Shown here: positions 46,456 through 58,740 of the stretch, piece after piece | How positions within the stretch are numbered: the first letter of the stretch is position 1 | How the letters are laid out: every line of letters begins with the position of its first letter | Source: Lacticaseibacillus pabuli | GTDB taxonomy: Bacteria > Bacillota > Bacilli > Lactobacillales > Lactobacillaceae | Reading direction: 5' to 3' | DNA: 64,000 bases | Assembly: GCF_028736235.1 (NCBI RefSeq) | Contig: NZ_CP117884.1 | Location: forward strand, 496,001 to 560,000 | The notes under the pieces: model-generated | What the model saw: the letters and a program-made list of their open reading frames with translations, nothing else | What the model was told of the DNA's origin: nothing | Database searches by the model: none | Translations under genes and position numbers: made by a program

Positions 46456-49260
46456 ATGTCAAAGCAAATTGTAAACAAGCATGAACGGATGCGCCGTGCG
46501 ACGGCAGAACGTCAGGAGCGCTACCGGATGTATAAGGATGGACGTAACTGGGTGATTGCTGGGATGGCAGCTTTGACCTTTGCGGTTTTGGGGATTCAGC
46601 AGACCACGACTTATGCGGATACTGAAGCGCCAGCTGTTGCGACCACCGAATCGACACAACAGGATGATAATAATGTGGCGACGCTAAAGTCATCCGATAC
46701 GAAGCAAACAGATACAAATGTGCCTGATGCCGGAAGCGACACGTCAAAGCAAGCTGAAACGACGAGTAATCAGACACAGCAAAATGATTCACAAAACGAT
46801 GAAGCCGTTACGGATAAGACGGCAAATGCTGCTGATACAGATGCTACGGAGAAGACGCAACCAGCACCAGCAGCTGAAGCTAAGTCGTCAGAGCCTGCAG
46901 CAAAGTCTGCTGCGACTACCACAACAGCCGCACCGGTAGCGACTACTAATGATAACAGTGCATCAAAGTCAGATACGACGAATCTGGGCGACGTCACGAG
47001 CGCGCAAGTGAATGCTGCAAAGGCTGCCGCAAAGGCGAAGTTTGAGGCAACAGGCGTTGCGCAAAAGGTGACTGCGGTGGATTCGGGTGCTGCGGTAACT
47101 GGCCAAGTTACTATTGAGTATGTTGATGATAAAGGACAACAGATTGTCCTTTCAGCAGAGGAGCAAAACGGTCTGACTAACAATGGCAAGAGCACGTCTG
47201 CCACCTTTGTTGGCGGCAATTTGGTGCTGAGCACAACTGTTCCTGCCGATAAGGTGACAACCAAAACGGTACTGTCACGTTACTTTCAACTGACGCTGCC
47301 GGGTTACACTTGGGTCAATACCGATTCAGACCAAACTTACGCTGCTGTTGGGACACCCAAGACCATTGAAGATCACTACAAGGCCAATGCAACGCCAACC
47401 CAAACAACCGGGACGACCCCTGTTGCCCAAGGTGTGACGGGACAGGCGACCGTTGAGTACGTTGATGAAAACGACCATCAGATTACTTTAACGCCAGCGG
47501 AGCAACGTGACCTGAAAAACGGCGCAACCTCAATCGTTGATGGCAATTTAGTCGTTACGTCGAAATTGCCAGCCGATTTGCTGGCAGAACACCCGAATGT
47601 GCCGAGTAGTTATTTTCAATTGACCTTGCCAGGTTACACTTGGGTTCAAACTGATGCGGACCAAGCCTTCGCAACAGATGGCTCAACCAAGATTATCAAA
47701 GATCACTACAAGACTAATGCAACGTCCATTCAAACGACCGGGACAACCCCATCAGTAGATAATACAGTTGATGGCGCAGTCACTGTGAAATACGTCGATG
47801 CGGACACCGGTGATGAAATTGATTTCAATAGCACTAATTCGTCAATGCCAATCCCGGCAACCCAAATCAATGGTGAATACACGGCGACTATCAGTGTTCC
47901 AGAGAGTAAATTTGACCAGCAACATGTTTCACCAAAAATTGCGGCAACACAGCTCATTGGATACCAGTACATGGGTAATGATGCTGCAGACTTGTCCTAT
48001 GCTCCTTCAAATGCCGCTAAACCAAAAGTCATCACGGCAAAGTATGAAAAACTAGCACCGTTGACTGTTAATTACGTGAACGAGGATGACCCAAGCGATA
48101 TCATTTATCACGTTACCGTTGTAGCCAACGACCCTGCTAATCAATTGCTCGGCGGTGAAGATTATGATATTACGAACTACATTCCGACATTTTATGGCTA
48201 TGAATACGATGCCAGCCGCACTAATCAGAGTGCTTTGACGGGACAGTTTGAAGGTGGGCCAGCAAAATCCATTAACATTGTCTACAAGAAGACAAATGAT
48301 GCGGTTTCCAAAGGTAGCTTGTTCATCGATGACTATTTGGGAACAACTGTTGTTCTGTCGAACGATCAGCAGGTCGGCATGAAGACCGTCAACCCCGGAA
48401 TCGTTTATGGCGCGACGGCAATACAAGATGGTGCGGTTGTAACGTCGCGGACTAAAAACGGCGCGGTAACTTCCTACCAAAACTACACGGTATTATTCGC
48501 AGTTGGACAGCATACTCTTGGATTGCAGGTAATGCCAGGGTTCTATTCCCTTGCTAATCAGCCTGTTGAGGTTCGGTTCGTAGATGCGGCATCGAACACA
48601 ACTTTGAATGCCATTTCCATGGGTGACTACAACACTAGTGAGAACATTATCCCATCTGGAAGCTATAACACGGATTCAGATAAAGCTGTAATCGCGGAGC
48701 AGAATCAGTTGGCCAAACAGAATTATCAGTTAGTGAAAGTGTTGGGTAATAAAGTTGGGGTTTACGACCCAGTTCACCGGGTGGTTTACTATTATTATGA
48801 GAAGCCAGCTTCGGTAACGACAGGGTCAACTACAGGTATTGATACATCCTTCCCCACGACTACTGATGAGACACCAACTTCACAACCAGACCAAACGCAA
48901 CCTGCTGTGACGCCAGTGCAAGCACCAAGCGGGCCTGACCTGAATAGTGAGAATGAACCTGATTTGCCATCAACATTTGGAGCAACTTCAACTGCGACAA
49001 ATGTCAAAAACACAAATCAAGGTACTCTGCCAGATACCTTTGGTGGCCAACAGGGGAGAAACACAATGAATGCTCAACAAGTGGCCAGCGCGGACTCCCA
49101 GCATCAGCAACTTGTTCGTGATCTTAGCAACAAGGTAAGCAGCAACTCATTGCCTCAGACTGGTGAAACCAAGTCCTCAATCACCAGCATCATCGGCCTT
49201 GCCCTTGCGTCCTTATTTGGCATCTTCGGACTCGGTATCAAGCACCGCAAAGCGAACTAG
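46456..49260 (+). CDS. MucBP-type LPQTG wall-anchored adhesin
   Basis: A 934-residue surface protein. Signal peptide of KxYKxGKxW type (RMYKDGRNWVIAGMAALTF; cleavage near TYAD/TEAP). Residues 55-200 are a low-complexity Thr/Ala/Gln region. Two closely similar MucBP-like units begin near 215 and 327 (each ends FQLTLPGYTWV... DHYK), a more distant one near 438 and a YVNEDDPSD module near 533. LPQTG is at residue 899, followed by a hydrophobic segment and KHRKAN. Likely binds mucin or glycans and is anchored by sortase. Base composition is visibly richer in A+T than its neighbours, which suggests acquisition. Confidence 0.93.
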   Translation: MSKQIVNKHERMRRATAERQERYRMYKDGRNWVIAGMAALTFAVLGIQQTTTYADTEAPAVATTESTQQDDNNVATLKSSDTKQTDTNVPDAGSDTSKQAETTSNQTQQNDSQNDEAVTDKTANAADTDATEKTQPAPAAEAKSSEPAAKSAATTTTAAPVATTNDNSASKSDTTNLGDVTSAQVNAAKAAAKAKFEATGVAQKVTAVDSGAAVTGQVTIEYVDDKGQQIVLSAEEQNGLTNNGKSTSATFVGGNLVLSTTVPADKVTTKTVLSRYFQLTLPGYTWVNTDSDQTYAAVGTPKTIEDHYKANATPTQTTGTTPVAQGVTGQATVEYVDENDHQITLTPAEQRDLKNGATSIVDGNLVVTSKLPADLLAEHPNVPSSYFQLTLPGYTWVQTDADQAFATDGSTKIIKDHYKTNATSIQTTGTTPSVDNTVDGAVTVKYVDADTGDEIDFNSTNSSMPIPATQINGEYTATISVPESKFDQQHVSPKIAATQLIGYQYMGNDAADLSYAPSNAAKPKVITAKYEKLAPLTVNYVNEDDPSDIIYHVTVVANDPANQLLGGEDYDITNYIPTFYGYEYDASRTNQSALTGQFEGGPAKSINIVYKKTNDAVSKGSLFIDDYLGTTVVLSNDQQVGMKTVNPGIVYGATAIQDGAVVTSRTKNGAVTSYQNYTVLFAVGQHTLGLQVMPGFYSLANQPVEVRFVDAASNTTLNAISMGDYNTSENIIPSGSYNTDSDKAVIAEQNQLAKQNYQLVKVLGNKVGVYDPVHRVVYYYYEKPASVTTGSTTGIDTSFPTTTDETPTSQPDQTQPAVTPVQAPSGPDLNSENEPDLPSTFGATSTATNVKNTNQGTLPDTFGGQQGRNTMNAQQVASADSQHQQLVRDLSNKVSSNSLPQTGETKSSITSIIGLALASLFGIFGLGIKHRKAN

Positions 49261-49412: not shown

Positions 49413-50714
49413 ATGCGAATGGTCGATTTGATTGCGAAGAAACGTGATGGCGGGAATCTGTCAAAGGCCGAGATAGATTGGATGATTGCATCCTACGTCA
49501 AAGAGGAAATTCCTGACTACCAAATGAGTGCGTTCCTGATGGCTGTTTACTTTAAGGGGATGGCTGATGACGAAATGGCCAACTTTGCTGGTGCGATGCT
49601 GCATTCTGGTGAAGTTCTCGACTTGTCGAGCATTCCGGGCGTCAAGATTGATAAGCACAGTACGGGTGGTGTGGGCGATAAAATCAGTCTCATCCTGGCG
49701 CCAGTCCTCGCGGCGTTGGGCGTCAACATTCCCATGATTAGTGGCCGTGGACTTGGTTTCACGGGCGGGACGCTGGATAAGCTCGAAGCGATTCCCGGCT
49801 TTAATGTCAACTTGACTGTGGATCAGTTCCGCAAGCAGGTCACCGAGCATCACGAAGCAATTATTTCCGCCAGCAAGGAAGTTGCCCCAGCTGACCGGCG
49901 CTTATACGCCTTGCGTGACGTCACGGCAACCGTTGAATCTATTCCGCTTATCGCCGGCTCCATCATGAGCAAGAAGATTAGTTCCGGAATTGATGCCCTC
50001 GTGCTGGACGTTAAGGTCGGTCGCGGTGCGTTCATGAAGACCCAGGAGGATGCTGAAAAGCTGGCCAAGGCACTGGTAACAATTGGCAAGGCCCACAATG
50101 TGAAGACCAAAGCGGTACTGAGCGACATGAATCAGCCGCTTGGATTAACCATTGGGAATGCGCTTGAAGTCGCGGAAACGATTGCGACACTTAATGGCCG
50201 TGGCCCCAAGGACGTTCGGCAACTTACGATAACACTCGCCGCTGAAATGTTAGTGCTGGCCGGTAAGACAGACAGCACAGAGACGGCCGCGAGCCTGGCG
50301 GGGGATGTCCTGCGCGATGGCCGTGCGTTGCGTGCATTCCGGCAGATGGTCATTGACCAAGGCGGGGATGTTCGGGTGATTGATAATCCGCAGCTGTTGC
50401 CGCGTGCCGACTTCCGTACTGCAGTGAAGGCACCTCGCAGCGGATTTATTAACAACATTGACAGTGAAGCCCTTGGCCTGGCTGCGATGCAACTGGGGGC
50501 TGGCCGTGCGAAGACGGGTGACAAGCTCGATCCTGCTGTTGGTTTGGTGCTCCACAAGAAGGTGGGAACGCCCGTTAGCGAAGGCGATACGTTGGCGACA
50601 GTTCACAGCAACCAGGAGCAAATTCCTGCAGTCTTGGCAGCTGTGCAAGCCGCCTTCGATATCACGGATGCGGCGCCGGCACCTAGCCAGCTCATTCGGG
50701 GCTTCGTCGAGTGA
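49413..50714 (+). CDS. pdp: Pyrimidine-nucleoside phosphorylase
   Basis: A 433-residue enzyme cleaving uridine/thymidine with phosphate in nucleoside salvage. Phosphate and nucleoside motifs: KHSTGGVGDKISL near 80, SGRGLGFTGGTLDKLE near 110, RDVTATVESIPLIAGSIMSKK near 168, DVKVGRGAFMK near 200; the C-terminal domain ends with LHKKVGTPVSEGDTLATVHSN. The usual GLGHTGGT carries Phe for His here. GGGAGGAAT precedes ATG. The other deo genes are not adjacent. Confidence 0.94.
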   Translation: MRMVDLIAKKRDGGNLSKAEIDWMIASYVKEEIPDYQMSAFLMAVYFKGMADDEMANFAGAMLHSGEVLDLSSIPGVKIDKHSTGGVGDKISLILAPVLAALGVNIPMISGRGLGFTGGTLDKLEAIPGFNVNLTVDQFRKQVTEHHEAIISASKEVAPADRRLYALRDVTATVESIPLIAGSIMSKKISSGIDALVLDVKVGRGAFMKTQEDAEKLAKALVTIGKAHNVKTKAVLSDMNQPLGLTIGNALEVAETIATLNGRGPKDVRQLTITLAAEMLVLAGKTDSTETAASLAGDVLRDGRALRAFRQMVIDQGGDVRVIDNPQLLPRADFRTAVKAPRSGFINNIDSEALGLAAMQLGAGRAKTGDKLDPAVGLVLHKKVGTPVSEGDTLATVHSNQEQIPAVLAAVQAAFDITDAAPAPSQLIRGFVE

Positions 50715-50768: not shown

Positions 50769-50797
50769 TTGCATTGTAAGCGGATTCATCATATACT
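50769..50797 (+). promoter_or_regulatory. Promoter of the large noncoding RNA
   Basis: TTGCAT (50769-50774), exactly 17-bp spacer, TATACT (50792-50797). Predicted start near G50804. Confidence 0.75.
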
Positions 50798-50803
50798 CTA
50801 GTT

Positions 50804-51736
50804 GAGGTTAAGGGAGAGCTACCGAACCTCATAAGCCACATTCTCTCCAGTTCCAGTACCGTAGTTAAGAGTTATGCATCACCAGTATCCATTGATGTTT
50901 CCGCACGTCAGTTGCTCACTCATCACGTTAAGTTGTATCGCTTGTGGTATTGATCCCCGTCGGTGTGAGCGGCGGTGGTCAGCCGGATCACCACACGATT
51001 AAGAGATGAAAGTACCAGGTATGTAGCCACCGATAGTAGTACCGGTTCATCCGCATCGGCGATGAAGCGGTTTAGGCAAGAAGGCTAAGTGCCAATGCTC
51101 TAAAAGCTTATAGTATGTTGTTGAGTTCCAATTGTTTCAAGTTTACCGTCACATTGTTTCTGAAGGCGGCTGATACGGCGGAACAAACAATCTCATTGGG
51201 CAACACAGAAGGTTTCGAAGGGATTTGATACCGATGCCAAGTGTAGTTGTTTCATAAGAGTACCTGATGTTGTTGGGTTTTACAGGAAAAGAGTTACTGA
51301 ACTTGCTGAAAGGGGCAGATAGCCGTCCAAAACACGAGCATATCCACTCGGCAAGTTGCCGAGAAGCTTAGTAACATCACGGCCTGCGAGCTGCCAGCTT
51401 CATTCGGACAGAGCCAGTAGGGCAGTCAAACTTCACCAAGAATATATGGTTGCGACGGCTACTGCAGGTCTCAGCGCTTTGATAGTTCCAAGTTTCAAGT
51501 TATCAGAGTTGCCAGCACCAAGTCAGTTAGTTCCACTAACAGTTGAATATTGTTGACCTAGCAATCGGCACAATCACGTTTGATAAAGCAACGGTCAACA
51601 TGAACCAGAGTTTCATCACAAAAAGTGAATAAGTGTTTTGAGGTGTTAATATCGGATTTGAAAAACCGCAAATGCTTATCGAGGTTCTGATTCCCTTAAC
51701 TTAGCGTTCCGAGCTGGAGAGACTCGGGACGCTTTT
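50804..51736 (+). ncRNA. Large structured noncoding RNA candidate (GOLLD/ROOL-like), about 930 nt
   Basis: A gene-free unit with promoter and terminator. The 5' end closes on the 3' end: 50805-50816 pairs with 51691-51702 (12 bp, two G-U), nearly 900 nt apart. Internal hairpins include TGTTGACC/GGTCAACA (51551-51558 with 51593-51600), CTCGGC/GCCGAG (51347-51363), GTTAG/CTAAC with loop TTCCA (51526-51540), TTCATC/GATGAA (51046-51066) and GTGTG/CACAC (50963-50996). AGTTCCA occurs four times (50849, 51124, 51484, 51529). No frame over about 66 codons has a ribosome site. Giant RNAs of this size class with terminal helices are known from Lactobacillales; which family this belongs to cannot be told by eye. 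Confidence 0.72.
51703..51736 (+). terminator. Terminator of the large noncoding RNA
   Basis: 11-bp stem AGCGTTCCGAG/CTCGGGACGCT (one G-T pair), 9-nt loop, TTTT. Confidence 0.8.
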
Positions 51737-51739
51737 GCT

Positions 51740-51860
51740 ATGCCCGTTAATAAGCTTTGAGACAGTTAATGGGCGACTTCGCGAAGCGGAGCTCGCGCAT
51801 TTACTGTCTCATGCGAATTTACGGGCATGCAGTCATTAGATGCGTAAGCATCTTATGACT
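51740..51860. repeat. Nested inverted repeats and GTAA-loop hairpin downstream of the large RNA
   Basis: ATGCCCGT (51740-51747)/ACGGGCAT (51821-51828) encloses GAGACAGT (51759-51766)/ACTGTCTC (51803-51810), which encloses CTTCGCGAAG (51777-51786). A second hairpin, 51831-51843 with 51848-51860, has a GTAA (GNRA) tetraloop and one mismatch. Coding potential is nil. Confidence 0.7.
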
Positions 51861-51989
51861 TCCATGCTCTTAGGCTTTTAATCCTCTAATTCCATCAACC
51901 ACTACCCACCCGCCGCATTAAGCACTATACTTAAAGCGCTGAAACGGAAGTCAACTAGGTATAACGAAAGACAGGCGGATATCAGACTA

Positions 51990-52658: not shown

Positions 52659-52827
52659 AGGTTAAGAGTCCGGGTCGAAGGAGGCACGCGAACAAACAGA
52701 GTCATTTCATTTGGAGTCACAGGTGGGCGTCATGGCATTCAGCATTAATTTTCAAAGTTAGATCACATTGGAACCGGTGCCGTTTAATATATTGCATTCA
52801 AAAAGAGCAAGCGAGGGCTATAATATT

Positions 52828-53385
52828 ATGAATAAGAAAAATTCTTTAAGCGTTAAAACCGTTGTGGCAATTGGGATTGGTACGGCTATTATTTTCATTT
52901 TGAAGCGGTGGGTTTCAATTCCTAGTGGGATTCCAAACACCAACATTGATACCTCATACGGGTTTCTTGGCTTCTTCAGCATTCTGTTTGGACCAGTTGC
53001 CGGCTTTGTCTCCGGATTCCTTGGTCACGCGCTAACCGACTTTACCTCCTACGGGACACCTTGGTGGACATGGGTGTTCACGACTGGGCTCGTCGGTGGT
53101 GTCATCGGGTTGTTCTGGAAGCGGCTGGATGTCTCAGCTGGCAACTTTGGTGTGAAGAAGATTGTTGGCTATAACGTCGTTCAGATTATTACAAATGTTG
53201 TCGGTTGGGCACTCATTGCCCCAACCCTGGACATCATTGTTTACTCTGAGCCTGCAAACAAAGTTTACTTGCAGGGCATCGTGTCCGGAATCTCCAATTC
53301 CATTTCCGCTGGTGTCATCGGGACCATTCTGTTGGTCGCATACGCTGCAACACGCACGCAAAAGGGTAGCTTAAAGAAGGAATAG
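52828..53385 (+). CDS. ECF transporter S component (UPF0397, MtsT-like)
   Basis: A 185-residue membrane protein with about five segments that captures the substrate for an energy-coupling-factor transporter. The block SYGFLGFFSILFGPVAGF, GHALTDFTSYGTPWWTWVF and the C-terminal YSEPANKVYLQGIV and AATRTQKGSLKKE are typical of UPF0397. That family has been linked to methionine or a precursor in comparative genomics, matching the probable Met T-box. ATG 52828 is chosen over the upstream frame at 52768. Start of a complete S-A-A-T operon. Confidence 0.9.
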   Translation: MNKKNSLSVKTVVAIGIGTAIIFILKRWVSIPSGIPNTNIDTSYGFLGFFSILFGPVAGFVSGFLGHALTDFTSYGTPWWTWVFTTGLVGGVIGLFWKRLDVSAGNFGVKKIVGYNVVQIITNVVGWALIAPTLDIIVYSEPANKVYLQGIVSGISNSISAGVIGTILLVAYAATRTQKGSLKKE

Positions 53386-53395
53386 AAAGGGCGGT

Positions 53396-55114
53396 TTGTC
53401 CCCAATCATGGCAGAACCGATTATCCAGTTCCAAGATGTGACATTTCAGTACGACAGTCAGGCGGAACCAACCCTGCATAATATCAATCTGACTATTAAT
53501 CGCGGCGAAAAGATTCTGATTGTCGGCCCATCTGGCTCTGGCAAATCGACCTTGGGCAACCTCATTAATGGCCTCATTCCGCACGCCATTCCCGGACAAA
53601 TTATGGGCAAGGTGACGGTAGACGGCGAAGTCGTTCAGGATAGTTCAATTTTTGACCTTTCTCTGAAGGTCGGCACGGTGTTGCAAGATCCTGATAGCCA
53701 GTTTGTCGGCTTAACGACCGCAGAGGACATTGCATTTGCCCTCGAGAACGACCAGGTTGCCACGGCCGAAATGAAGCAACGCGTCAAGGCGGTCGCCGGT
53801 ACGCTCGGTCTCGACAACCAGCTGAGTCAATCGCCACAGAATCTGTCTGGTGGTCAGAAGCAGCGCACCTCAATGGCTGGCGTTCTGATTGATGACGGGG
53901 ACATTCTACTATTTGACGAACCGCTTGCCGCGTTGGATCCTGCGACGGGGAAGGCGTCTATCAAACTCATCGATGATTTGCACAATCGCCTCGGTGTGAC
54001 CGTGGTGATTATTGAGCACCGCTTGGAAGACGTGCTGACGCAGCCAATCGATCGGGTGTTGGTGGTGAATGACGGGCGAATTACTGCCGACGTGACGCCG
54101 GATGCACTGCTACACAGTGACCTGCTGACGACGATTGGGGTCCGGAGTCCCTTGTACCTGCAGGCTTTAACGGCGGCGGGTGTTGCTAAGGATAGTATTA
54201 CTGGCATTGATTCCGTGCAGACTGTTGATGCCCCACAGTTGCAGCAGCGTTTGAGCGACTGGTTGGAGGGCGAACCCGAACTGACGAAGGCTAGCCGGCG
54301 TGAGCCGTTGCTTGAAATCCGCAACTTAGACTTTGGCTACGATGCGCAGACGCCAATTTTTAATCAGCTTAATCTGACCATCAATAAGGGCGACATGTTG
54401 GCACTTGTTGGGCGCAACGGGGTGGGGAAGACTACCCTGAGCCAGCTCATTACGGGTTTTGCGACGCCGCAATCCGGGCAGATGCGATTCGCAGATACGG
54501 ACCTGCTCGACCTTTCCATCAAGGAACGGGCGGACCATATTGGCTACATCATGCAGGACCCGAACCAGATGATTTCCAAGAACTTGATCCATGATGAAGT
54601 CGGCCTGGGACTTGATCTGCGCGGCGTGGCACCTGAAGAACGGGATCGGCGCGTCGATGATGCCCTGAAGATTTGCGGCCTGTACGCATTTCGGCACTGG
54701 CCGATTTCCGCGCTCAGCTTTGGACAAAAGAAGCGGGTCACCATCGCCAGCATTCTCGTGTTAAATCCAGAAATGCTGATTTTGGACGAACCGACTGCCG
54801 GCCAGGATTGGCGTCACTACACGCAGATGATGCGATTCCTCGAGCAGCTTAACCGTGAGCAGGGGATAACGATTGTTTTGATTACTCATGATATGCACCT
54901 CATGCTGGAATACGCGAACCGCACCGTTGTCCTGGGTGATCACGGCATCATGCTCGACGCCTTGCCTGCAGAAGTCCTCACCAACCGCCCGGTGATTAAG
55001 GCCGCCAGCTTGGCTGAAACGAGTCTCTACACGCTGGCCGACCGCTTCAATCTGGACCCTTATCAATTCACGAGTCAGGTGATTGCCAGCGAAAGGAGGT
55101 CGTGGCATGAATAA
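53396..55114 (+). CDS. ECF transporter energy-coupling ATPase, fused double ABC domain
   Basis: A 572-residue protein with two ABC ATPase domains in one chain (about 1-240 and 300-540). Domain 1: Walker A GPSGSGKST, signature LSGGQKQR, Walker B DILLFDEPLAALD. Domain 2: Walker A GRNGVGKTT, signature LSFGQKKR, Walker B MLILDEPTAGQD. It powers uptake with the S and T proteins. TTG 53396 is 5 nt after AAAGG and is taken as start; ATG 53408 (MAEPIIQF) is an alternative. It overlaps the T gene by 8 bp. Confidence 0.94.
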   Translation: MSPIMAEPIIQFQDVTFQYDSQAEPTLHNINLTINRGEKILIVGPSGSGKSTLGNLINGLIPHAIPGQIMGKVTVDGEVVQDSSIFDLSLKVGTVLQDPDSQFVGLTTAEDIAFALENDQVATAEMKQRVKAVAGTLGLDNQLSQSPQNLSGGQKQRTSMAGVLIDDGDILLFDEPLAALDPATGKASIKLIDDLHNRLGVTVVIIEHRLEDVLTQPIDRVLVVNDGRITADVTPDALLHSDLLTTIGVRSPLYLQALTAAGVAKDSITGIDSVQTVDAPQLQQRLSDWLEGEPELTKASRREPLLEIRNLDFGYDAQTPIFNQLNLTINKGDMLALVGRNGVGKTTLSQLITGFATPQSGQMRFADTDLLDLSIKERADHIGYIMQDPNQMISKNLIHDEVGLGLDLRGVAPEERDRRVDDALKICGLYAFRHWPISALSFGQKKRVTIASILVLNPEMLILDEPTAGQDWRHYTQMMRFLEQLNREQGITIVLITHDMHLMLEYANRTVVLGDHGIMLDALPAEVLTNRPVIKAASLAETSLYTLADRFNLDPYQFTSQVIASERRSWHE

Positions 55115-55937
55115 TTCACTATTTGGTTTTGCCCCTGGGACCAGCTGGCTACACCGCCTGAGTGGCGCGACCAAGCTCCTGGCATTTCTCGGTATTTCCA
55201 TTATCGCGATGGCCAGCTACGACACACGGTTTACCCTTGCGATTGTGATTGTTTCGCTCTTCCTATTTTGGCAGGCGGGCATTAAGTGGTCGCAGGTTCG
55301 ATTGGTGGTTAAAATCATTTTGGCCTTCTCCATCCTGAATCTGATTACCGTGTATCTGTTCGCACCGGCATACGGTGTCGGACTGTACGGGACTAAACAC
55401 CTCATTTTGGGAAGCACCGGGTACTTCACGCTAACGCAGGAACAGCTGTTTTACGAGCTGAACCTGGCACTGAAATACGTGGTGACCGTGCCCCTTGCGC
55501 TGCTCTTCCTCATTACGACGAACCCCAGCGAGTTTGCGGCGAGTCTGAACAAGATTGGTTTGTCGTACAAGATTAGCTATTCGGTTGCGCTGTCCTTGCG
55601 CTATATACCGGACATCCAGAACGTGTATCACCAGATCAGCATGAGTCAGCAAGCCCGTGGTTACGAGCTGTCCAAGAAGGCGCGACCCATGGCACGGCTG
55701 CGTGGTTCCGCCCAGATTCTGATGCCACTAATTTTCAGTAGCCTGGACCGCATCGAAACCATTAGTCAGGCGATGGAACTGCGGCGTTTTGGTCGCCACA
55801 AGAAACGGAGCTGGTATATGGACCGGCCGTTTGCACTGGCAGACTGGTTGGTACTGGCGGGAACAGTCGTCATTTTCTTGATTGGTCTAGCGCTGTTCAA
55901 GGTGAATGGCGGGCGGTTCTTTAACCCCTTCAAATGA
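55107..55937 (+). CDS. ECF transporter T component (EcfT)
   Basis: A 276-residue membrane scaffold linking the ATPases to the S component, with about six hydrophobic segments. The coupling helices carry the Ala-Arg-Gly type motifs: SMSQQARGYELSKKAR near 185 and ISQAMELRRFGRHKKR near 225. ATG 55107 follows AAGGAGG by 7 nt, inside the end of the ATPase gene. Last gene of the operon; terminator at 55943-55995. Confidence 0.93.
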   Translation: MNNSLFGFAPGTSWLHRLSGATKLLAFLGISIIAMASYDTRFTLAIVIVSLFLFWQAGIKWSQVRLVVKIILAFSILNLITVYLFAPAYGVGLYGTKHLILGSTGYFTLTQEQLFYELNLALKYVVTVPLALLFLITTNPSEFAASLNKIGLSYKISYSVALSLRYIPDIQNVYHQISMSQQARGYELSKKARPMARLRGSAQILMPLIFSSLDRIETISQAMELRRFGRHKKRSWYMDRPFALADWLVLAGTVVIFLIGLALFKVNGGRFFNPFK

Positions 55938-57415: not shown

Positions 57416-58675
57416 TTAGTTATCACCCTTGTTTTCAGCGAAGTACTGCTTGTAGCGGCCATAGTAGTTATACATGGCGTACTTCATCAGCAACCAGCGC
57501 TTAGGTGACATGTCCTTGTTGTAGAACACAGTCGTCGCGGCACGGCCTTCAGAGATAAGCTGAAGGGCGCGTGTCTTGTACTTGTTGTCTTTAGCGTAAC
57601 GCTTAAAGATGCGCTTGGGAACACCGAGCCAGAGCTTAGCCTTGTCTTCGTCTTCGTTAGCGAAGACGGTCTTGGCGCCGGCCAGTTCACCGGTGATGTA
57701 ATCCTTAACGGGCCAGCTGGCGAGGTTGTAACCGTTCAGTGTCACGAAGAAACTGCTGCGGCCCTGACGGATGTTGATTTCAAACAGCTTGAAGGTATCG
57801 TCGCGGTCGTCGTACTTCATATCGAAGTTGGCGAAACCGGTGAACTGGATGTCTTCGAGGAACTGCTTCATCTTGTCGTACAAGGGCTTGTTGTATTCAG
57901 GCAAAATGGCGACATAGTTCCCGATTGCAGCTGGCGTTGGGTCTTCCAGCAGTGGGTGACCCAAGCACATCATCTTGACCTGATGATTCTGGTCGACATA
58001 AGCGTTTAGCACCCGCATGTGGCTGTCGTCCCCAGGCACGAAGTCTTGGAGAATCAGGTCACTGGTGTAGCCGTTGTCGTAGATTTTGCCGATGACGGTG
58101 TTCAGCTCAACTTGTGAGTGAATCGTGAAGGCTTTCTTGCGACCTTCGAAGTGGATGTTTAGCCATTCAACGGAGTTCGTTGGCTTGAGCGCAACGGGGA
58201 ATGGGAATGGTGGGTTAACGGACACGCCACTCTCGTACATTGCCTTGGTGATAATCTTGGTGCTTGGGTAAGGTAGGTTGTACTTGTCGCAAATTTCGTA
58301 GAAGCTTTCCTTACTATTCAAGCGCTTGAGTAAGTCGTAATCAACGTACGGGCAAATAAAGGTCTTGCTGAGTTCTTCCTTATGTTTAGAAATCAGTTCG
58401 GCGTAACCATCCCCACACGCAATCAGAATAATCTTTTCGTCGTGGTTCGCGTATTTTTCAGCAACCTTCCGCATGTTTTCAATGAAGGTTGGGTCAGAAT
58501 CAAAGTCATCAATTAAGTGCACGTTTACAATTTTTGAGAAACGTGTTGGTGCTAGCTGCAGCCGCGCGTAGATATCGACTGGTTGGTTCGTTAATTCGTG
58601 GAATGACCGGGCCATTCCGTATACATTCATGTCACTCCCGAGAAGAATCGGGGTAAATTTAGGCAAGTCTGCCAT
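57416..58675 (-). CDS. ATP-grasp ligase, probable D-aspartate ligase of the peptidoglycan cross-bridge
   Basis: A 419-residue ATP-grasp carboxylate-amine ligase. The N-terminus (ILLGSDMNVYGMARSFHE) and central blocks (FPFPVALKPTNSVEW; LILQDFVPGDDSHMRVLN; MMCLGHPLLEDPTPAAIGNY; GFANFDMKYDDRDDTFKLFEINIRQGR is the metal/ATP end, given in two motifs) closely resemble the Aslfm group that attaches D-Asp to Lys of UDP-MurNAc-pentapeptide. That would give a Lys-D-Asp bridge. The assignment is from memory of the family. ATG 58675 follows GAGGAGAC; the frame to 58690 is rejected. Confidence 0.85.
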   Translation of the reverse strand: MADLPKFTPILLGSDMNVYGMARSFHELTNQPVDIYARLQLAPTRFSKIVNVHLIDDFDSDPTFIENMRKVAEKYANHDEKIILIACGDGYAELISKHKEELSKTFICPYVDYDLLKRLNSKESFYEICDKYNLPYPSTKIITKAMYESGVSVNPPFPFPVALKPTNSVEWLNIHFEGRKKAFTIHSQVELNTVIGKIYDNGYTSDLILQDFVPGDDSHMRVLNAYVDQNHQVKMMCLGHPLLEDPTPAAIGNYVAILPEYNKPLYDKMKQFLEDIQFTGFANFDMKYDDRDDTFKLFEINIRQGRSSFFVTLNGYNLASWPVKDYITGELAGAKTVFANEDEDKAKLWLGVPKRIFKRYAKDNKYKTRALQLISEGRAATTVFYNKDMSPKRWLLMKYAMYNYYGRYKQYFAENKGDN

Positions 58676-58740
58676 GTGGCGTCTCCTCACTTTGCTTTAT
58701 ACACTGGCATCAATTATACCACACGCGTTCGTTTGAATCG

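Follow-up and report, generated by a model that had tools for sequence, protein, structure and literature searches.

What kind of gene occupies the stretch that follows pdp in Lacticaseibacillus pabuli? The first-pass annotation of the window (the whole stretch of DNA that was analysed, 64,000 nt) had proposed a giant structured non-coding RNA at this place, either a member of GOLLD or ROOL or a new class of similar size. GOLLD and ROOL are two of the best-known large bacterial RNAs, and both ride on phages. To our knowledge, few bacterial RNAs are so large and so structured without having a known function.

The locus and its predicted signals

The RNA gene was extracted for comparison as positions 50799-51738 of the plus strand (940 nt), from which a transcript of about 0.93 kb is expected, and it has a single blastn match in its own genome (G000 in our set). 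Its upstream neighbour, which lies outside the RNA, is the pyrimidine-nucleoside phosphorylase gene pdp (49413-50714, plus strand; Pfam PF00591/PF07831/PF02885), and its downstream neighbour is a 96-aa ORF without a Pfam match. The predicted promoter (50769-50797, plus strand) consists of a -35 element TTGCAT at 50769-50774, a 17-nt spacer and a -10 element TATACT at 50792-50797; it was read from the sequence and from an alignment with the promoters of eight relatives, and would place the start of transcription near 50804. The putative intrinsic terminator (51703-51736, plus strand) has a stem formed by 51703-51713 and 51723-51733, followed by a short T run. The promoter had been described as near-ideal, which over-states it: the -35 element matches the consensus at a poor 3 of 6 positions, and a consensus scan of the window contains neither the promoter nor the terminator. 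The terminator of the earlier description, though absent from that scan, is present and also appears in the predicted fold. For both signals in the window the argument is a comparative one, a promoter-like stretch and a terminator hairpin having been read in each of the 41 family extracts described below.

The longest sense ORF in the window RNA has 66 aa (51356-51556, TTG start) and no ORF conserved across the whole RNA family was found, in agreement with the earlier description of about 900 nt without coding potential.

Two features of the surroundings may be mentioned. Further upstream, at 46456-49260, the window encodes a surface protein of 934 aa, which carries a signal peptide of the KxYKxGKxW type and an LPXTG wall anchor. 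Directly behind the terminator, at 51743-51865, lie further imperfect inverted repeats, and by eye long palindromes like these adjoin the RNA gene in G029, G007, G011 and G019; they may be mobile palindromic elements.

Pairing of the two ends and internal structure

The extreme ends of the RNA pair with each other. Helix P1, 12 bp including two G-U pairs, joins 50805-50816 (AGGTTAAGGGAG) to 51691-51702 (TTCCCTTAACTT), both on the plus strand, and lies exactly where the first-pass annotation had placed it. P1 continues into a second helix that had not been noticed there, P2, formed by 50824-50836 (GAACCTCATAAGC) and 51674-51687 (GCTTATCGAGGTTC) of the same strand with one bulge. Together the two helices contribute -32.4 kcal/mol in the window, and they are contained in both the minimum-energy and the centroid folds of the window RNA. 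The fold as a whole has a z score of -2.15, with none of 20 shuffles equally stable; judged by single-sequence folding, the RNA folds only moderately better than its shuffles.

Comparison among relatives is more telling. The end pairing was found in all 41 members; in every one of them we let the first 50 nt pair with the 50 nt that precede the terminator. Native ends pair with a mean of -28.0 kcal/mol, as against -17.25 (sd 0.70) when ends are swapped between species, and none of 20,000 between-species permutations was as low as the native set. When the 3' ends were shuffled instead (mean -14.3, sd 3.9), the best of 2,050 pairs was surpassed by 16 of the 41 natives. An earlier run with 28 members had the same outcome; in that run up to 22% of cross-pairings, close relatives included, matched or beat single natives. 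The arms themselves differ, with GGTTAAGG, GGTAAAGG, GGTCAGGG and AGTTAAGG as variants of P1, CGGAAGGATAA in group g12 and GTGAGGAA in group g38, each with its own complement.

For the internal domain we used alignment A7, which holds 34 distinct sequences and was fitted to a model, and hence leans towards structure. In it 90.6% of cells pair, changes on both sides occur in 24 of 35 pairs (18.1 when shuffled), and the covariation score is 0.468 against 0.185 for shuffles, of which 0 of 500 reached it, and at most 0.069 when the alignment is slid. The five long forms, taken alone, show changes on both sides in 9 of 35 pairs (4.6 when shuffled) and a score of 0.283 against 0.172, with pair types not above shuffles (15 vs 14.5) and one slid version scoring 0.160; the alignment of all five is good in the 3' half only. 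The first-pass annotation had named conservation or covariation of the paired arms in homologues as a check, and the structure passed it, both at the ends (41 of 41) and inside (24 of 35 pairs with compensatory changes).

In the five long Lacticaseibacillus members (group A), the conserved core spans 51217-51433 of the plus strand and contains, in the window, GAAGGGATTTG..CCGATGCC, GCAGATAGCCGT, a CTCGGC hairpin and GGCAGTCAAAC; alignment A2 and model R1 were derived for it. Nearer the 3' end, a conserved motif at 51625-51645 (plus strand) runs from GTGAATA (51625-51631) to GAGGTG (51640-51645), recognised by eye against homologues and by the enrichment of GAGGTG.

A terminator loop that may lock the fold

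The loop of the terminator hairpin (51714-51722, plus strand; CTGGAGAGA) is complementary to 50842-50850 of the same strand (TCTCTCCAG); our script gives an 8-bp core at 50843-50850, and the ninth pair was read from the sequence. Because the 3' arm of P1 stands between the two strands, this pairing would be a pseudoknot. Its 5' strand sits just inside P2, and the pairing links the 3' end to the 5' domain in 14 of the 41 members, the window included. These belong to four groups (group A with 5 members, g38 with 7, g11 and g21) that were set apart only after the pairing had been noticed, and in 14 of 14 a search of the whole RNA places the best complement of the loop 31-46 nt from the 5' end (0-based). 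The paired sequences differ, being CTGGAGAG/CTCTCCAG in the window and TTGAGAGG/CCTCTCAA, TTGCGAGAA/TTCTCGCAA and TTGAGAAG/CTTCTCAA elsewhere, and shuffled loops found an equally good partner in the same interval in 6 of 560 trials. Among the remaining 27 members the best partner falls in this interval in 2 only, and a search for an equivalent loop pairing in the other 23 Lacticaseibacillus and the four g12 genomes gave scattered partners only. Four paracasei-like genomes have a common 6-bp candidate, which would compete with P2. Several short-form clades share terminator loops such as GAAGTAA or TAAGTA, which have no consistent pairing partner and may contact something else.

Taken as a kind, a large structured bacterial non-coding RNA is long, non-coding, conserved in structure with compensatory changes, and equipped with its own promoter and terminator. 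All of this was found here, the promoter and terminator being judged by comparison only, and we regard it as all but certain that 50799-51738 is a conserved structured RNA gene.

One family in five genera

The family comprises 41 members of 408-1107 nt in five genera of the Lactobacillaceae (28 of 30 Lacticaseibacillus genomes and 13 genomes of four other genera), with one match per genome where it was found. In the 30 genomes of the genus, blastn found two relatives besides the query itself, both downstream of pdp. Two more, G021 and G009, came from a profile search downstream of pdp, which also gave weak 5'-end matches in G017, G001, G011 and G007; these four are shorter relatives that share the promoter and the terminal helix. 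Among 397 Lactobacillaceae genomes, R1, the model of the long-form core, matches strongly in the five long-form genomes only, with five further matches at E 0.007-0.04. R2, the model of the short-form core, matches 21 Lacticaseibacillus genomes at E <= 2.3e-14 and two g12 genomes, and R3, built from 23 sequences, raises g12 to 4 genomes and also matches g38 (7), g11 (1) and g21 (1). A further search, run with full filters, brought in G004 and G020 and found no RNA match in G015 (85% complete) or G026 (91%). An order-wide search of 395 genomes returned 7 matches, all of them in Lactobacillaceae; searches over 40 genomes ran with stricter filters on sampled species, and do not prove absence elsewhere. 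Group g38 is presumably Lactiplantibacillus, as a recA primer for the L. plantarum group occurs exactly in G336 (1 of 15 genomes, and 1 of the 7 in g38). The longest member, 1107 nt in G303, contains N and its length is uncertain; by eye, a module of about 230 nt seems to be repeated several times inside this RNA (about 500-1640 of locus L115), where the N run also lies.

Several matches were set aside. L063 is a 22-base pattern match in an unrelated MAG contig that scores 13.2 bits by profile, L066-L068 are viral promoter-pattern matches inside ORFs of 138, 88 and 138 aa, and the G108 match (R2, E 0.028) lies inside a 195-aa ORF. The match in G176 (R2, E 0.022) lies outside any ORF of 60 aa or more; it was dropped, being absent from R3 at E 0.05, with no promoter, P1 or terminator seen.

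Whether the long and short forms belong together deserves attention, as the five long members gave no R2 or R3 match in the family-wide searches and the window's genome gave none in the full-filter search. With filters off, R3 does match within the RNA at four of the five long-form loci, at E 0.002 to 5: the best, in G029, reaches 22.1 bits (E 0.0019) and has 21 letters identical to G025, and those in G009 (14.0 bits), the window (13.9) and G021 (6.9) are weak singly. No such match lies inside the RNA of G022 (locus L005). In the window the weak match to the family-wide domain models covers 51464-51632 of the plus strand (R2 7.8 bits, R3 13.9 bits; E 0.04 and 0.14). The promoter and 5' arm also align across the nine members found first.

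Gene order points the same way. We searched 23 loci by tblastn with five marker genes. Of 12 short-form Lacticaseibacillus loci, 11 have a phosphatase gene (PF00149) at most 420 bases upstream, as does the long-form G029; 6 of these 12 loci and all three long forms examined have a universal-stress-protein gene. The gene of a 424-aa protein is found downstream in 4 short-form loci of the 12, in g11 and in the long forms G022 and G029; in these two long forms it follows the RNA within about 520 bases, and in the window it lies 5.7 kb downstream on the other strand (57416-58690, minus strand). This protein has no Pfam match and a below-cutoff NCBIfam match to a carbamoyl-phosphate-synthase-like model. 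Downstream of the RNA, asnB, the asparagine synthase gene (TIGR01536), is present in g11 and in 4 of the 12 short-form loci. None of the five markers was found near the RNA in G023 or in the g12 (2), g38 (4) and g21 (1) loci examined, and a constant partner gene, looked for across the loci, was not found. Between the RNA and the 424-aa-protein gene, the window carries genes of a riboflavin-type ECF transporter at 52768-55937 (S component, ATPase domains and CbiQ by Pfam). On promoter and P1 sequence, synteny, the R3 matches and a pseudoknot common with g38, g11 and g21, our reading of the sequences is that the long and short forms are one family. The gene looks like a vertically inherited, chromosomal one, no phage or plasmid relative having been found for three members.

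A predicted carbon-control site in the promoter

The spacer between the -35 and -10 elements contains a cre-like site (50775-50788, plus strand; TGTAAGCGGATTCA), a predicted operator of CcpA with one mismatch to what we take to be the cre consensus, TGWAANCGNTNNCA. Sites with at most one mismatch occur in 33 of the 41 family promoters, against an expectation of 0.26 when the same pieces undergo mononucleotide shuffling; the members are related and the events therefore not independent. They lie across the -35 element or in the spacer, at offsets that differ by lineage. The CcpA gene itself is found in the window's genome (542.6 bits, cut-off 442.35). Repression in the presence of a preferred sugar is the established behaviour of cre-type sites that overlap a core promoter. 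As the cre-like site overlaps the core promoter here, we would predict the same, and we consider it quite likely that the RNA is transcribed and controlled by CcpA.

What the RNA may do

Our best overall explanation, to which we assign a probability of about 0.6, is a new chromosomal RNA class that is held down by CcpA, closes upon itself and acts in trans as a scaffold or particle. CcpA would hold transcription down while preferred sugar is present, as is suggested by the cre-like site on the core promoter. When the sugar is exhausted, the RNA would be made and its last-made piece, the terminator hairpin, would dock onto the 5' domain, and this docking would close the RNA into a long-lived fold resistant to exonucleases. 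The closed RNA would work in trans as a scaffold or particle, be it a ribonucleoprotein or self-assembled RNA, and its variable middle would carry repeated single-stranded GWWCCA binding sites for a partner. Because the neighbours differ between genera, the RNA probably acts in trans, which we hold with some reserve, and any specific mechanism for the scaffold or particle step, which is proposed by analogy, would be less probable than trans action itself. One such mechanism, which we put forward tentatively, is an RNA particle built in starvation: upon release from CcpA, the terminator hairpin would click into the 5' domain, and the closed molecules would self-assemble or dock on ribosomes as an RNA compartment or ribosome store, with the expandable GWWCCA-rich modules as cargo sites.

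A possible but rather unlikely alternative is a ribosome-docking or hibernation RNA, whose conserved GGAGGUG and GAGGUG would base-pair with the 16S rRNA 3' end and thereby retain idle 30S subunits when the cell is starved of carbon. GGAGG and GAGGUG belong to the best-conserved parts of the RNA and are not followed by a conserved reading frame, and in 24 representatives that we picked from the 41 members GAGGTG was seen 35 times against 3.7 expected; the cre-like promoter fits starvation, and ribosomes are reported to have bound GOLLD in pull-downs (PMC12286853). On the other hand, group A, the window included, keeps GAGGUG only, G012 and G018 keep neither motif in full, and the first motif may have two of its G in a helix (A7 helix 1). 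Sites of at least 6 nt resembling an anti-Shine-Dalgarno partner number 2.46 per RNA, slightly more than the 1.55 of mononucleotide shuffles, when reckoned with an assumed 16S tail.

The repeats raise the prospect, which we think doubtful, of a base-pairing regulator or sponge whose GWWCCA copies titrate one mRNA, small RNA or RNA-binding protein. The first-pass annotation had counted four copies of AGTTCCA in the window, and indeed they start at 50849, 51124, 51484 and 51529. AGTTCCA is one form of G[AT][AT]CCA; in the same 24 representatives it was seen 18 times against 1.7, and the general form 89 times against 19.4 +/- 4.1 expected. TGG, in turn, is not enriched (157 vs 152). A tandem GAACCAA run in the variable middle of the RNA of G002 (locus L095), as if GWWCCA had expanded by slippage, would suit a sponge as well, but copies range from 0 to 9 per representative.

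Relation to known RNAs

The scaffold or particle reading assumes a class of its own, and the size of the RNA invites comparison with those already described. At gathering level the window matches nothing in Rfam; with E allowed to rise to 10, the RNA stretch gives only a chance match to PhotoRC-I (E 3.9). For 22 of the 40 other members no Rfam match was found in the RNA in scans at E<=5, at gathering level or at E<=1, those listed for the relatives' loci in the E<=5 and E<=1 scans lying outside it. Membership in GOLLD, ROOL and OLE was each rejected for want of a covariance-model match in the window or the 22 relatives. The Rfam check proposed with the first-pass annotation thus came out against GOLLD and ROOL, and of its two suggestions a new class of similar size is the one that stands.

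GOLLD is named for Lactobacillales among others, is encoded by phages or prophages and is often found near tRNAs. A nanocage of 14 units counts among the marks of GOLLD, and a nanocage made of RNA alone among those of ROOL. There are no tRNA genes in the 64-kb window, and no phage or plasmid relatives turned up when three members served as queries. Scanning IMG/VR with patterns gave 0, 0 and 3 matches, the 3 lying inside ORFs of 88-138 aa, and a phage or plasmid origin was rejected on these results. In the parts of the literature available to us, GOLLD is often longer than 800 nt, with a conserved 3' region, a less conserved 5' region and a large folded RNA (PMC12286853). The new family resembles it in these respects and differs in being without an Rfam match, a phage relative (three queries) or a tRNA nearby, and in being chromosomal, with one match per genome and a cre-like promoter. 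ROOL, by the text consulted, extends from 520 nt in L. salivarius to 659 nt in env-120 and has pseudoknots (PMC12286853, PMC5643018); the L. salivarius lncRNA, which the former source treats as ROOL, is megaplasmid-borne and reported as species-specific in the latter. The likeness here is a folded RNA with pseudoknots in lactobacilli, whereas the new family has no Rfam match and spans five genera. OLE, described in what we saw of the literature as a structured RNA of about 600 nt of Gram-positives, is similar in kind and differs in that the new family has no OLE match in Rfam and no constant partner gene alongside. The L. plantarum supermotifs (LPSM) are likewise intergenic, 800-1000 nt long and from lactobacilli, but as far as the accessible description goes they occur in many copies and only in L. 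plantarum (PMC5643018); the new family, with one match in each of the 7 g38 genomes, is set apart from them by this description and not by sequence.

A far-diverged GOLLD, ROOL or OLE would share the size class, the closed ends, the conserved 3' and variable 5' parts and the order Lactobacillales with our RNA; with no match in the window and 22 related loci, and the phage, plasmid and tRNA results given above, we think this very unlikely. A diverged RNase P was also rejected, as RNase P RNA is found elsewhere (G000:C1:1307090-1307450, 294.7 bits), and the only candidate for 6S RNA, below gathering level at 28.2 bits, is elsewhere in the genome too.

We found no description of this family in the literature, judged by titles and abstract openings, with subscription papers largely outside. 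In L. casei BL23, a strain of the same genus, 86 intergenic sRNAs were obtained from a 50-500-nt library and, by the portion of the report at hand, most candidates matched no known RNA family (PMC8220740). The form of about 500 nt in G005, G006, G016, G019 and G028 (genomes of 2.9-3.1 Mb) could be among them, and that list may include this RNA without naming the family. The best explanation of the sequence comparisons would be a new class of large, independently transcribed chromosomal non-coding RNA of Lactobacillaceae, of the size of GOLLD, ROOL and OLE and, by the Rfam test, none of these.

We give even less credence than to a far-diverged GOLLD, ROOL or OLE to a long 3' or 5' untranslated element that controls a neighbour such as pdp, the phosphatase, asnB or the riboflavin transporter. 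The phosphatase and asnB frequencies in the short-form loci, G029 and g11 speak for it, but all 41 extracts have a promoter-like stretch and terminator hairpin of their own and the neighbours change, being different in g12, g38, g21 and the window, and a pdp UTR was rejected for these reasons. Least credible of all is that the transcript encodes a small peptide, whether or not it also works as an RNA, for although there are Shine-Dalgarno-like motifs and longest ORFs of 23-82 aa, no start codon stands at a conserved spacing by eye, ORF lengths and frames vary with none conserved family-wide, and protein matches between members are short among the 60 of 128 pairs listed, so that a peptide gene was rejected.

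Implications

In contrast to the phage-borne GOLLD and ROOL, the new RNA is apparently encoded on the chromosome and inherited vertically, and its genera count tractable strains of laboratory and food use among their members. If it forms, the pseudoknot of the terminator loop would illustrate clearly how a transcription terminator can be built into the tertiary lock of an RNA. The predicted inducing condition is the loss of preferred sugar, which makes the role of large ornate RNAs testable.
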